Shown: piece after piece, positions 27,153-33,006 of the stretch
Numbering within the stretch: the first letter of the stretch is position 1
Layout of the letters: the number at the start of each line of letters is the position of its first letter
Assembly (NCBI RefSeq): GCF_000150955.2
Contig: NC_011680.1
Span: forward strand, 1 to 64,000
Length of the DNA stretch: 64,000 bases
DNA from: Phaeodactylum tricornutum CCAP 1055/1
Taxonomy: Eukaryota > Bacillariophyta > Bacillariophyceae > Surirellales > Neidiaceae
Direction of reading: 5' to 3'
Made by a program: the position numbers and the translations under genes
The notes under the pieces: model-generated
Seen by the model: only the letters and a program-made list of their open reading frames with translations
What the model was told of the DNA's origin: nothing
The model's database searches: none

Positions 27153-28121
27153 TTAGTGTTCTCCTTCGTCTATTTGATTGGCGGCTTGGAGTACGTCAGG
27201 ATTCTGTGCGTTGGCTACGAGGAACTCAGGGTTCGCAAGCAGAATACGCCCTAGGCCGAAGATGGTCGGTATATGAGCATGATTTCGCACTTGATCCATT
27301 CCCTCATGTCTTCGAATCTCCCGTTCTTCGATATCAGCCTGTACTAGTCCTTCCAAAGCCGACAAACTTCTTTGATTCACTGCAATTTCGTGCTCCTGTA
27401 AATATGTTACCAATTCCTCGTCAGGAGTTCGTTTTTGTTCCAGCTGATGCCGGAGAAGCTGGAATATGCGAACAAGTAGACATGGAAAAAAAGTTTGGGT
27501 CTGAGCTGGAGGTGCATTTTCAAAGAGGAGCGCGGGATTAATGACACCGATTCGAGTCAAATTTCGATATGATTGAGCAATAGTTTGATGCTCGTCGTCA
27601 AAGATGACAGTGCGAAGATTGCCATCGCTTAAGTGTAAGCTGTGACCGCCTCCTCCGCCTGCCTTGTACCAGAAATAGTATATGTCACTGTCGATTGGCA
27701 CAAAGTTTATCCGCAAAGCCGATTGTTCATGAGGTGCAATATCTGATTCGAAAACGATTCGTCCATCCTCAAAGGCATCTCGTCTTTGTGAAACAGTACT
27801 GGCAGATATTGCCGTAACAAATACTTGGCCTTTGCGGTTTCCCCAACCTTGGTCGCGCCAGCGAAGACCGAGCGAGAGGGAGTGGACCCTTCTGTTCAAA
27901 ATTGGGAAGCGGAATGCCCGGACCGGGTTATCGCCATGCTCAAAGTCTCCGACTCGATCCATGCGCGCAAACAAAAGGAGAGGCGGATCCAGTGAAGAAA
28001 GCGATAGGCTTTGGCGAAGTGCTACGCATGTAAGCCCCACCTGTACAGCATCATGAGGGCAGAGGAAGGTAGCTATCTTTTGCTTGATTTCAGGTGGTAT
28101 CGTTAGTAAATCGTAGCACAT
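27153..28121 (-). CDS. F-box-like protein of unknown function
   Basis: 322 aa from the first ATG at 28121; four more upstream codons are open but start with GTG. Residues 8-40 (LTIPPEIKQKIATFL, then TCVALRQSLS) resemble an F-box, which would dock to Skp1 in an SCF ubiquitin ligase. The middle may be a beta-rich, SPRY- or PHR-like domain judging by a Gly-rich GGGGGHSLHL segment. The C-terminus is helical and charged. No substrate-binding repeats (LRR, kelch, WD) are visible. The call rests on the N-terminal motif alone. Confidence 0.6.
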   Translation of the reverse strand: MCYDLLTIPPEIKQKIATFLCPHDAVQVGLTCVALRQSLSLSSLDPPLLLFARMDRVGDFEHGDNPVRAFRFPILNRRVHSLSLGLRWRDQGWGNRKGQVFVTAISASTVSQRRDAFEDGRIVFESDIAPHEQSALRINFVPIDSDIYYFWYKAGGGGGHSLHLSDGNLRTVIFDDEHQTIAQSYRNLTRIGVINPALLFENAPPAQTQTFFPCLLVRIFQLLRHQLEQKRTPDEELVTYLQEHEIAVNQRSLSALEGLVQADIEEREIRRHEGMDQVRNHAHIPTIFGLGRILLANPEFLVANAQNPDVLQAANQIDEGEH

Positions 28122-28554
28122 ATCGGCGTTCACAACTCAGCCTCCCGACCCCTTATTCCTCGGACCCGCCTTGAACGATCGAGACAATCGGTTCCTTGCG
28201 TCGATTTTACATTCAATAGAATTAACAAATGCTTGTCAAAATCTGGATTTTCATTAATTTGATGTTGTCGGCTTCACTTCATTTGTCAGGATCAAAGGTT
28301 TCAATGCAACCACTTGTCCAACGGATGTCATAGTCAAGAACGCAACCCTACCCTACATAAATGACCATTAAATGGGTACCACAATAAGTCTTTTGTGTGC
28401 GTACCAGTATACAACTTACACCCATATTACCGCACCTTGGAACTTCAGTTTTGGAGAAAACTCAGTCAGTCAAATTATAGTGTGCGGCGTGTGTCTGCTC
28501 CCTGCGACCGGAGCGAATAACAAATATAGATATGTACAGCACTTACTTCCTCGA
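28122..28554. other. divergent intergenic / possible 5' extension
   Basis: 433 bp between divergent genes. An open frame in phase with the downstream gene begins at an ATG at 28372, but its first 61 codons look non-coding and may be leader, so I leave it out of the gene. No other feature was seen. Confidence 0.35.
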
Positions 28555-28980
28555 ATGGTTCATAGCATGCCTTGGAAATCACGTGTTGTTCTTGTCTGCT
28601 TAATGCAGGTAATGATGAGTAATGCTGAGAATATGGCGTCAGCTTCGCAGCGCTCTCTAGGCTTTGCGGCGGGCATTCCGCCCGATAAGAGGCAGGAAAT
28701 TGAAAGAGCGGAAGCAGCCTTGCCCCAGTTACCGTCAGCTGATTCAACATCAGATCTTCCGCGTATAAGCTTGGGTGAAACAATTTCTTTTGAAGCCATG
28801 GGCCCCGTTATTCTAAATTTGGATGGGACTACGCGCCGCATTGCCAATTGGGATCAGATGACGAAGAGGGAGCAAGAAGTAGCTTGGCGAAGAGTTAGCA
28901 AGCGAAACGAAGAACGTAGGGAAATTATTTTAGAGAAATTGGAGCAAGGTGAGCAGGAGTCTGGAAATAATGAACTTTAG
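28555..28980 (+). CDS. small conserved protein with DGT/NW motif
   Basis: 141 aa from the ATG at 28555; further in-frame ATGs follow at 28567 and later, and 28372 is an upstream alternative. The C-terminal 60 residues carry GPVILNLDGTTRRIANWD, then MTKREQEVAWRRVSKRNEER. I recognise this as a small uncharacterised domain found in algae, plants and fungi, with no assigned function. The N-terminus is hydrophobic and could be a signal or transit peptide. The stop lies only 23 nt from the stop of the convergent ChaC-RCC1 gene. Confidence 0.6.
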   Translation: MVHSMPWKSRVVLVCLMQVMMSNAENMASASQRSLGFAAGIPPDKRQEIERAEAALPQLPSADSTSDLPRISLGETISFEAMGPVILNLDGTTRRIANWDQMTKREQEVAWRRVSKRNEERREIILEKLEQGEQESGNNEL

Positions 28981-29003: not shown

Positions 29004-31185
29004 TCAGCTTGTCTTTTTAGCGAGTCGCATAGCAATCATATGAGCTCCACCCAAGGCGAGTCCTAAACTACTCTTTTCTGAATAGCCTGGAGTCAAAGTG
29101 ATCGGAGCCCCTTTGATTTTGGTTAGTTCGAATGCATCAAAGTCATGTCCTAAACCCAGGTTTCCGTGCTCATTCCAACCGCAGCTCCATATTTCGCCGT
29201 CAGTGTCGACGATTGCAGTAGACTCGGATCCGCAAGCGACAAGTCTAATTTTATGCGAAGGATACAACCGTACAGGATTAAAGACGATGCTGCTTGTGCC
29301 AACCCCAAGCTGGCCTTTGTCATTCCTTCCCCAGCCAAATAATATTAGTTCTCCCTTGCCATTTTCCAATTGAAGGATAGTGTGAGACCAGCCGCAGTGC
29401 ACTCCGGTGACTGACAAGCTGTCGAGCCCCCAATCGCCATCCACCAGCGATGGTACCCTACTGTATTTTTCACCTTTAAGATCGCGTCCAAGCTGGCCGT
29501 ATTTATTTTCACCAAAACTCCACACTCGCCCACGATCGTCAAACGTAACTGTGTGGCGACGTCCACAAGCAACACCAAGCACCCTGCTTCCGTCATCTGG
29601 TTTCCAGTGCCCGTACAATCTATGCCGTACAACAGGAAGGCACTGTCCAAATCGACCACAGCCCCAGGTTATGAGTTCGCCATCTTCGCTCACGGCAGCA
29701 GAATGGAAAACTCCAGCGAACACGGCCACAATATGTTCCTTGAGCGGTAGAGCAGTTGGCAATGGAATGGTGGAGGCGCAGTTATCAGGGTCAGCTTGGC
29801 CTCTTGCGTTGTCCCCGAAGGAATATACACGACCTGTCTCTTTTTCGACCACCAATGAATGAGAAAAACCAAGCGAGCAATAGGAAATAAACAAATCACG
29901 GAGACAAGTAAGGATAGGGAGCGGAAAGGAGGATTGTGTGATTCCACTTGCTCCCAACTGACTATGTTCGTTTGACCCGAATAGGAATAGCCTTCCGCTT
30001 TGCATAAGGATCGCACTGTGTCCTCCTCCTGCAAATAAAGAAATAACTTTTTCATTCACTTCGATTTTGTCGGTTTGGTCAGCGCACAAAACGATTTCTT
30101 TCATTTCATGGGCATCTTCGTTGTTAAATAGAGCGGCCGCATTATTTTCTGTTTGCAGTAAAAGCTGGTTTCGCTGATTAGACCCCGAGCCAAACATGAA
30201 ATGCAAATTTTGATTGCGTAACTGTTTCGTCATAGATGCAAGCACCAGTGTATCGTCGTATTTCTTCAGTGTGGAACCTGAAGCTACTTTTCCTAGAAAG
30301 TGGTCCAAACGGCTCAAATAAACTTCATTCTCACCACTCGGACCGATCGCCGTAGCCATGATTGCTAAAAAAAAAGACAATTATGATAGTGAGCGAGATG
30401 TATCAATGCTTTGACTGGCACGTAGTGCCACTCTGAAGGGACTCGCCTGCTGCAAACGGAAGATCTCGCAATGCTCTTGGCCAAAACGCCGGATTCTGTG
30501 GGGTGCCTCTATACAGTAAAGCCTGAACCACTTTACCACTCTTGTCTTCGACAACTTCTATTATGTCTCTGGCGTAGCCACCTTTTTCTCGAAAATCTAG
30601 CTCCGCTAAGCATTCTTCAACTAAAGGCGGAGGGACTTCGAAAATTAGTCCTTCCGTCAACGTTTCCTCGTCTACGCCAGACGAGAGAAATTCTCGAAAT
30701 TCTTGGTCTTTCAGCAAAGTACACACAATTCCAGGGAAGCAAGGAAGGCCGCGATGATCGGTCGACTTTTGTGCCCAACAGCGTCGGTATCCTCGTGCCT
30801 GGCCTGGCGCGTATCGCACTGACGGATCGGCAAGGGCTCCGGTGCCGGGGTTCCAACACAGAGACCCGTAGCCGAACAGTCGGAGGGTGCCGTTGTTCTC
30901 CGCAATCAAATCCTGGATTTCGACTGTTTGGGGTAGTACTCCTCCGGTATAAATTTGTTGAATGGGGTCCCAGAGCGGTTCCTCATTCTCTTCAGTGTCC
31001 ATGGCTTTCTGTTTGCAAGCCAATTTCGCAAATACAAGGGTGTGAATATGCTGAAAGGGGTAGTTTGAAGTATCGGTGGGTTCCCTTAGAAACCAAAGAG
31101 CGATAGGGGGAGCGAATGAAATGGAAGGGCCGATTAGTGTAGTAATGGCCAAAAGCGTCGACAGGACCGTGCAATTTCCAAGCAT
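29004..31185 (-). CDS. ChaC gamma-glutamylcyclotransferase fused to RCC1 repeats
   Basis: Exon 1 (31185-30447) encodes a signal peptide with SISFAPP, a classic diatom plastid cleavage site, then the ChaC fold: FGYGSLCWNPG substrate loop and LDFREKGGY, with the catalytic Glu. Exon 2 (30364-29004) begins with IMATAIGPSGENEVYLSRL, the expected C-terminal end of ChaC, and continues into about seven RCC1-type repeats (for example SFGENKYGQLG, GWGRNDKGQLG). The 82-nt intron has a GC-AG border (CAG|GCGAGT to TTTAG|C), and splicing restores phase, giving 699 aa. ChaC enzymes cleave glutathione to 5-oxoproline and Cys-Gly; RCC1 propellers mediate protein contacts. The fusion is unfamiliar to me. Confidence 0.82.
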
Positions 31186-31722
31186 TGAGGATACAGCTTT
31201 TCAATCTGCTGTTTGCCGTACATGCCGGAGAAGCCGATACTTGGACCATGCGTGACCAGCTGGAACGTAAGAAAGTCAGTCCGCGCAGTCGTCCGGATCA
31301 CTGTCAGTCAAATTACTTCATCTTTGCCCCACTTCTGGATTACAGGGATTCCTGTTTAACACGCACCGGAAATAGTCATGGATTGGGTTTGCAAAGCAGA
31401 GATTATTTTGACAGCCAATATTTGACTTGTCTAGTCTGTGTCGTATACATGTCGAAACGGTACCAGAAATGAAACGTGCGCGATTCTGGATACTGACTGA
31501 TTGTTACTGTGAAGTTCCTAACTGTAAAACTTGACCGCGAGCAGAGTTGCGAACTTGAAATGAGAAGAGTATCGAGAATGTATATCACAAAAAGACGCAG
31601 CAACAAAACCTTCGTTCTCAGTTGTCTATGGCAGACACCTAGTCGGCAAATACCGCTTGACGCAATCGCTATATTGAGGCCGGAAAGGGATTATTAACAT
31701 ACTTTTGGCCTTTTGAGAAGGC
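31186..31722. promoter_or_regulatory. divergent intergenic region, ChaC-RCC1 / 2OG oxygenase
   Basis: 537 bp. Two copies of the recurrent core are seen: CACTGTCAGTCAAATT near 31297, closer to the ChaC-RCC1 gene, and TAACTGTAAAACT near 31519, about 200 bp upstream of the oxygenase start. No supported gene. Confidence 0.4.
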
Positions 31723-33006
31723 ATGATCGGTTCTTATTCCAGGCAAAATAGAATTGGCTTGTTCTTCGTTTTCGTTGCGACATCGAAAGTAGGTGCGAAA
31801 GTCCCAACGTCTCGTAAAAGAGTCCTTCCTCAAACAGATATGCCTGGCAATAGCGATGCATGGAATGGAATTGGCGGTGGAGCCGTCAATGAAAAGGTGA
31901 GAACACAGGGTTCTCAGGATGGAACGAAGGACCTTCTAGATAATCCTAATTCGTCGGGCTTTAATCCTTCAAATTCACGGGCACACTTATTCCACGCATT
32001 GGAAGGACTGGATCGCTATCCGAACTACCTCGCAAGGTGGAACGAGTCAGATATAAATTGCTTAGAAAATGCTTTAGAAGAGGTACTGGTGAAGGTTTGC
32101 GAGCAGAAGCGCTCAATACTGGATCAGAAAAAAGGGATACAGGCCTTAGTCGGGGAACTTCTTGAAGCCGACGGAGATAGATGGCGGAATCTTTTGCGGC
32201 CCCCAACCAACTGGTCAGAAATGCAAGATGGTGTTTTAGATAGCAAGGCATATTGCACTATTATCGCTCCAAGACTTTTTACCCAAGCAACACCTCCTAC
32301 AGTACGACAAATCCTCGCAGCGGAAGTCGAAATAGAGCTAGACGTAGGGCAATTGACATGCTTGATGAACGAGGAGATGTATGATGTTTATTCTCTCTCC
32401 ATTCTCTCGGAGAGTTTTTGTGGTAGAGTCCGAGAGTTTGTCTCGGAAGTTTCCAGGCTCGGGCAAACGGAGAAGTATGCTAACCTGCAAATGGGACGAC
32501 GGCCCATAGACCTTGACACTATTGGACTCGGCTGGATCAATGACTTACTATTTTACCTTATCCTACGTCCTATTTCGCGTCATCTTTTCGAATCATCGGA
32601 AAGTTTTGGCGACTTGAACTGGCGACAAGGATATGTTGCTGCCTACTCAGCAAACCCTACCGAGGGAAGGCCTAGAGCACAACTAATTACTCATACTGAC
32701 GACAGCGAAGTTACATTGAACATCGGTCTGGGGGAAAACTTCACAGGTGGGGCTATAGAGTTTCGAGGATTACGGGGAACGCCGGAAGCTGGAAAGTTGA
32801 TCGGTACGATTCAGCCTCGAGTTGGCGTAGCTCTGATACATGCAGGCCGGCATTTTCACGATGTCACAACCGTGACGTCTGGGGATCGCTTTGCCCTAGT
32901 CATGTGGGCCAGGTCCTGGGGTGGTATTCGCCAGCAAGCTTGTCCCTGTTGCTGGCTCAATCGACGTAAAGATGACCATTGTGTATGCGGTCCAAGCTGG
33001 AATTAG
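31723..33006 (+). CDS. prolyl-hydroxylase-like 2OG-Fe(II) oxygenase with Cys-rich tail
   Basis: Single exon of 427 aa. The catalytic C-terminal domain has HTDDSEVTLNIGLG (His about 324, Asp about 326), GGAIEFRG, then HAGRHFHDV with the distal His, and GDRFALVMWAR with the 2-oxoglutarate-binding Arg near 389. This is the P4H/PKHD arrangement. The protein ends with a Cys cluster, CPCCWLNRRKDD then CVCG, which may bind metal. The N-terminus is moderately hydrophobic and could be a signal peptide. The substrate is unknown. Confidence 0.8.
   Translation: MIGSYSRQNRIGLFFVFVATSKVGAKVPTSRKRVLPQTDMPGNSDAWNGIGGGAVNEKVRTQGSQDGTKDLLDNPNSSGFNPSNSRAHLFHALEGLDRYPNYLARWNESDINCLENALEEVLVKVCEQKRSILDQKKGIQALVGELLEADGDRWRNLLRPPTNWSEMQDGVLDSKAYCTIIAPRLFTQATPPTVRQILAAEVEIELDVGQLTCLMNEEMYDVYSLSILSESFCGRVREFVSEVSRLGQTEKYANLQMGRRPIDLDTIGLGWINDLLFYLILRPISRHLFESSESFGDLNWRQGYVAAYSANPTEGRPRAQLITHTDDSEVTLNIGLGENFTGGAIEFRGLRGTPEAGKLIGTIQPRVGVALIHAGRHFHDVTTVTSGDRFALVMWARSWGGIRQQACPCCWLNRRKDDHCVCGPSWN

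Follow-up and report, generated by a model that had tools for sequence, protein, structure and literature searches.

A ChaC domain fused to an RCC1-like propeller in the diatom Phaeodactylum tricornutum and its relatives

A spliced gene for a two-domain protein

ChaC enzymes are familiar as small proteins that stand alone. In the diatom Phaeodactylum tricornutum CCAP 1055/1, our analysis supports a single nuclear gene, on the minus strand of contig 12, that encodes one two-domain protein of 699 amino acids in which a ChaC domain is followed by an RCC1-like propeller. The gene lies within bases 1–64000 of this contig (hereafter the window); the genome as a whole comprises 27,450,724 bases in 88 contigs. 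We think it likely that the protein combines a gamma-glutamylcyclotransferase with a docked propeller serving as a binding platform, with a long form going to the plastid and possibly a cytosolic form as well.

The list of open reading frames places an ATG at 31185 on the minus strand, from which a frame runs through a ChaC domain to a stop at 30403; a second minus-strand frame, 30380–29004, contains the remaining end of ChaC and then RCC1 repeats. An earlier note on this DNA, made from the sequence alone, had proposed that the first exon ends inside the ChaC domain, that the next frame completes this domain before continuing into RCC1 repeats, and that a GC-AG intron joins the two frames in phase into a single 699-residue product. 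Each of these points was borne out, and the proposed coordinates hold. Exon 1 (30447–31185, 739 nucleotides, codons 1–246 plus one base) matched the Pfam family ChaC (PF04752) on its own (E 2.8e-21; 76.8 bits against a cut-off of 21), and since this match covers only positions 3–122 of 176, the domain is interrupted where the exon ends. The exon, defined by the frame list, a splice enumeration and Pfam, carries a presequence, a WDP/QIY region and the bulk of the ChaC domain (residues 98–246, 30447–30894, from Pfam and a structure model). Exon 2 (29004–30364), defined by the frame list, Pfam and an AlphaFold model, matched the RCC1-like domain PF25390 (E 2e-69) as well as RCC1 repeats. It encodes the C-terminal portion of ChaC (ATAIGPSGENEVYL) together with connecting helices, which in the model extend to about residue 295 (30219–30364), followed by the RCC1-like propeller (residues 299–695, 29019–30209, from Pfam and the model) and the stop.

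The intron itself (30365–30446, 82 nucleotides, phase 1) has a CAG|GCGAGT donor and a TTTTTTTTAG|CAA acceptor, and the unspliced exon-1 frame reaches its stop within it. We enumerated GT or GC donors in 30520–30380 and AG acceptors in 30440–30300, requiring introns of at least 40 nucleotides; 32 GT/GC...AG pairs leave the frame open. By our comparison with relatives, the sole pair giving the family sequence PFAAAIMATAIGPSG free of insertion or deletion is CAG|GC...TAG|CA. For 108 of the 110 relatives aligned, the junction stretch is equally long; among them is P0001, a 699-residue database protein derived from a 2845-base JGI contig. P0001 has the same junction as the window protein and differs from it by three substitutions, at residues 109, 460 and 587 (the listing prints 100% identity); its contig looks like a spliced transcript, because the unspliced frame holds a stop. 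Both exceptions, P0018 and P0095, carry extra residues exactly at the junction (28 and 25, each beginning with GK), which seem to be the relatives' own intron read through in frame, that is, gene-model errors. These inserts sit between residues 247 and 248 of P0001.

The fusion among diatoms

The earlier note had suggested looking for the same architecture in other diatom proteomes. Among database proteins, 7996 candidates, those sharing most words with the query, were scored and 219 matched; both ChaC and RCC1 domains were present in 116 of the 120 matches listed, the other four being RCC1-only (P0086, P0094, P0108 and P0109). A search of proteins of similar total length with the ChaC part found 153 matches; of the 120 listed, 118 have RCC1 domains, and the two that lack them, P0122 and P0127, look like pieces. 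The earlier note took ChaC and RCC1 proteins to be normally separate; among the diatom relatives seen, the fusion is the usual form and not an oddity of this genome. Seven fused relatives bear MMETSP transcriptome names (P0014, P0054, P0055, P0067, P0089, P0102 and P0128).

These comparisons also bear on whether the locus holds two separate, unspliced genes, one ChaC and one RCC1, with each gene cut short or degenerate where the two meet. The stop of the exon-1 frame at 30403, an ATG soon after the acceptor in exon 2, the RCC1-only make-up of 4 of the 120 listed relatives and the 120 listed short matches in which Pfam finds ChaC alone all speak for such a split. However, the spliced junction is present in P0001, two relatives have the intron read through, the seven transcriptome-named relatives are fused, and the short ChaC matches mostly end at recurrent sites, as expected of exons read alone. 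We regard two genes as extremely improbable.

The short matches were also considered as stand-alone diatom ChaC enzymes and rejected as such. Among the 120 listed of 274, 109 end at three intron-like sites (67 after REKG, 24 at the junction site and 18 after GPSG); the remaining 11 break off elsewhere and, by our reading, lack a natural C-terminal end. In the relatives, introns seem to recur at three sites, one of which the window gene uses; intron positions in the relatives are deduced from protein, where GT and GC donors read alike. Two further models have gaps within ChaC, perhaps from mispredicted introns: P0251 (Pseudo-nitzschia multistriata) lacks the end of the domain and P0070 (Seminavis robusta) its middle part.

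Legible names among the matches were Fistulifera, Nitzschia, Cylindrotheca, Mayamaea, Seminavis, Epithemia, Pseudo-nitzschia, Skeletonema, Thalassiosira and Conticribra. For Fistulifera, Skeletonema and Thalassiosira oceanica a look-up gave diatom status; Nitzschia, Cylindrotheca, Mayamaea, Seminavis, Epithemia, Pseudo-nitzschia and Conticribra are diatoms too. Taxonomy identifiers added Entomoneis paludosa, Attheya septentrionalis, Dactyliosolen fragilissimus and Pseudo-nitzschia pungens as carriers. Because the carriers looked up represent four diatom classes (Bacillariophyceae, Biddulphiophyceae, Coscinodiscophyceae and Thalassiosirophyceae), the fusion probably has a long history within diatoms. 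No non-diatom organism appeared among the legible names, which cover a minority of the listed matches. As to an origin in bacteria or viruses, scans with a few peptide patterns confirmed no relative in genome contigs (using alignment A1) or in viral contigs (using the ChaC exon or A1). NCBIfam gave no match for P0001.

Alignment A1 has 110 rows, of which 66 form A2; ten of the 120 listed full-query matches were left out of A1 as N-terminally incomplete or RCC1-only (P0081, P0086, P0090, P0094, P0097, P0107, P0108, P0109, P0118 and P0119). Across 108 of the 110 rows, ChaC distances and propeller distances were correlated (r 0.73, against a maximum of 0.13 in 999 permutations), which, as would be expected, fits one fusion inherited as a unit.

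The ChaC half

Searches of the PDB by sequence identified human ChaC2 and yeast GCG1 as relatives of the enzyme half, and structure comparison placed the modeled fold in the ChaC/GCG family. Glu83 of ChaC2 has a catalytic role. Alignments to 6K95 and 6KY1, the latter a structure in which this residue is mutated, pair it with Glu200 of the window protein (codon 30586–30588), which all 110 aligned fusions share. The GYGSL loop is likewise present, each of its positions being kept in 108 of the 110 rows; P0001 reads GYGSP there. On these grounds the domain would be a glutathione-specific gamma-glutamylcyclotransferase, converting glutathione to 5-oxoproline and Cys-Gly.

A second ChaC gene was sought and rejected: an exon-by-exon search of the 88 contigs gave one ChaC match in the whole genome. 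Hydantoinase_B occurs in one gene, in a 1358-residue frame, as in 5-oxoprolinase; gamma-glutamyltranspeptidase matches lie at two places on contig 5, and GGACT has two matches in the genome, one of them weak. Because these genes and matches were found, a route from 5-oxoproline to glutamate seems available in this genome.

The propeller half

Both RCC1 repeats and, in the model, an RCC1 propeller fold were found in the second half, and RCC1 itself (1I2M) was a fold match. AlphaFold models of the protein from two distant diatoms had predicted template modeling scores (pTM) of 0.87 and 0.88, which suggests that ChaC and the propeller pack as one body. In the models, ChaC is predicted to pass through two short helices into a propeller docked upon it.

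The known RCC1-like domains of HERC2, HERC1 and RPGR are binding platforms. Among 50 listed structure rows, those of HERC2 and HERC1 matched the propeller better than RCC1 did, and that of RPGR about equally. If the propeller were instead a guanine-nucleotide exchange factor, as RCC1 is for Ran, it could couple a small GTPase to glutathione turnover; the fold match to RCC1 agrees with this, but the better or equal matches to HERC2, HERC1 and RPGR make it, to our minds, very unlikely. More remote still is a UVR8-like light sensor controlling glutathione breakdown. UVR8 chains are the propeller's best PDB sequence matches (best E 8.1e-54), and GWSH (residues 571–574 of P0001), which resembles one UVR8 GWRHT motif, is found unchanged in all 110 aligned fusions. 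UVR8, however, has GWRHT in three stretches, whereas GWRHT is absent from the window protein, which has a single GWSHT, and the motifs neighboring that GWSHT read CGRRHT and CGSEST. Most likely, the propeller is a platform for binding proteins, by which the enzyme is positioned or regulated.

A different division of labor would make the enzyme the whole function and the propeller a stabilizer or passive passenger, or else make ChaC a remnant and the propeller the working part. In its favor, mean pairwise identity is lower in the propeller (0.46) than in ChaC (0.62); against it, both halves contain invariant residues, for example Glu200 and GWSH at 110 of 110 each, and we consider this division rather unlikely.

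The N-terminus and a second start

Codons 1–61 (31003–31185), modeled with low confidence, encode a hydrophobic stretch and then SIS|FAPP, which resembles a diatom bipartite plastid-targeting peptide; according to PMC4329603, the ASAFAP motif of diatom plastid preproteins puts F at +1. With its signal-peptide-like stretch and ASAFAP-like motif, the long form is predicted probably to reach the plastid. A second ATG at Met62 (31000–31002) is a candidate start, and a protein begun there could be cytosolic. The contexts of the two ATGs (tcaATGC for the first, gccATGG for the second) would allow leaky scanning, and dual targeting is possible. The plastid location given in the earlier note is only suggested by the presequence, while the second start, common among relatives, leaves room for a cytosolic form.

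At least 45 residues precede the conserved W72 in 54 of the 110 rows. A hydrophobic core was found in 47 of these 54 long rows, with [ASGC]F in or after the core in 38 of the 47, and an internal Met lies at most 35 residues from W72 in 49 of the 54; shuffled controls gave means of 22.4, 21.7 and 33.5 and maxima of 30, 34 and 44. The density of internal Met peaks 11–20 residues before W72 (37 of 540 positions) and is lower at 1–10 (9 of 540), 21–30 (12 of 540), 31–40 (5 of 540), 41–60 (13 of 952) and 61–100 (5 of 692). Among the 56 shorter rows, 40 have at most 25 residues before W72 and start at about the internal Met of the long rows; such short N-termini may be real short forms or a choice of the gene callers.

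Neighboring frames

On the plus strand of the window, a divergent adjoining frame of 429 amino acids (31717–33006) has a weak, below cut-off match to an OGFOD2-like domain, and a convergent frame of 202 amino acids (28372–28980), whose sole Pfam match, DcuA_DcuB, is below cut-off, ends 23 bases short of the ChaC-RCC1 stop. A minus-strand frame of 327 amino acids (27153–28136) has no Pfam match at E 0.01.

Discussion

Our favored reading, one gene for a gamma-glutamylcyclotransferase joined to a docked binding platform and sent at least in part to the plastid, has several points against it. The counterpart of ChaC2 Glu74, called an active-site residue in the title of 6KY0, is residue 191, as placed by one pairwise alignment; it is Glu in the window protein, but Glu in just 61 of the 110 rows and Asp in 19. 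The packing of the two domains rests on pTM. The hydrophobic-core and [ASGC]F rules are loose, since they accept a match that falls within the core and a core that lies some way from the start; the shuffles ignore the kinship of the rows, and the resulting counts are not probabilities. Fewer than 45 residues precede the domain in 56 of the 110 rows; some species may lack the presequence, or gene callers may have trimmed it. Finally, five ATGs lie in the 300 nucleotides upstream of the first start. A bolder version, in which diatoms as a group use a single ChaC docked permanently to a propeller, with two starts serving plastid and cytosol and a partner gating plastid glutathione breakdown, is possible but clearly less probable than the favored reading.

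The protein differs from the systems it most resembles. Solved ChaC/GCG chains (yeast GCG1, 5HWI; human ChaC2, 6K95 and 6KY1) have 176–240 residues, to which the diatom protein adds a propeller of ~400 residues. The Arabidopsis GGCT2;1-3 route is cytosolic, according to PMC8464934, whereas the diatom protein is preceded by a plastid-like presequence. The 50 listed structure rows include the RCC1-like domains of HERC2 (RLD2, 7Q40), HERC1 (4O2W), RCC1 (1I2M) and RPGR (4JHN), and in none of the 50 does the description mention fusion to a glutathione enzyme. The likeness to UVR8 is one of overall sequence, with GWSHT once in place of the GWRHT motifs.

Entries of Fistulifera solaris, Cylindrotheca closterium, Seminavis robusta and Thalassiosira oceanica have the same two-domain Pfam make-up as the window protein and are named glutathione-specific gamma-glutamylcyclotransferase, their names, as listed in cut form, making no mention of a fusion; JGI names of other matches list both families. 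The fusion appears to be undescribed: we found no description of it in the literature searched, which mostly excluded subscription journals. In the portions seen of PMC9026201, PMC8495957 and PMC6362508, ChaC and RCC1 terms occur separately, either within a reference list or in tables of genes and proteins, and in those of PMC7050145, which treats RCC1 proteins, 'chac' occurs within the name of an author.

Gene models cut at the junction intron, whether RCC1-only or ChaC-only, need correction. Since the diatoms seen share the fusion of the glutathione-degrading enzyme with a propeller, their glutathione breakdown may be linked to a platform for binding proteins; the sequence also points to the plastid. 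If true, this would offer a ready test of the propeller's binding partners and a direct handle on glutathione turnover in the diatom plastid under light, metal or sulfur stress.
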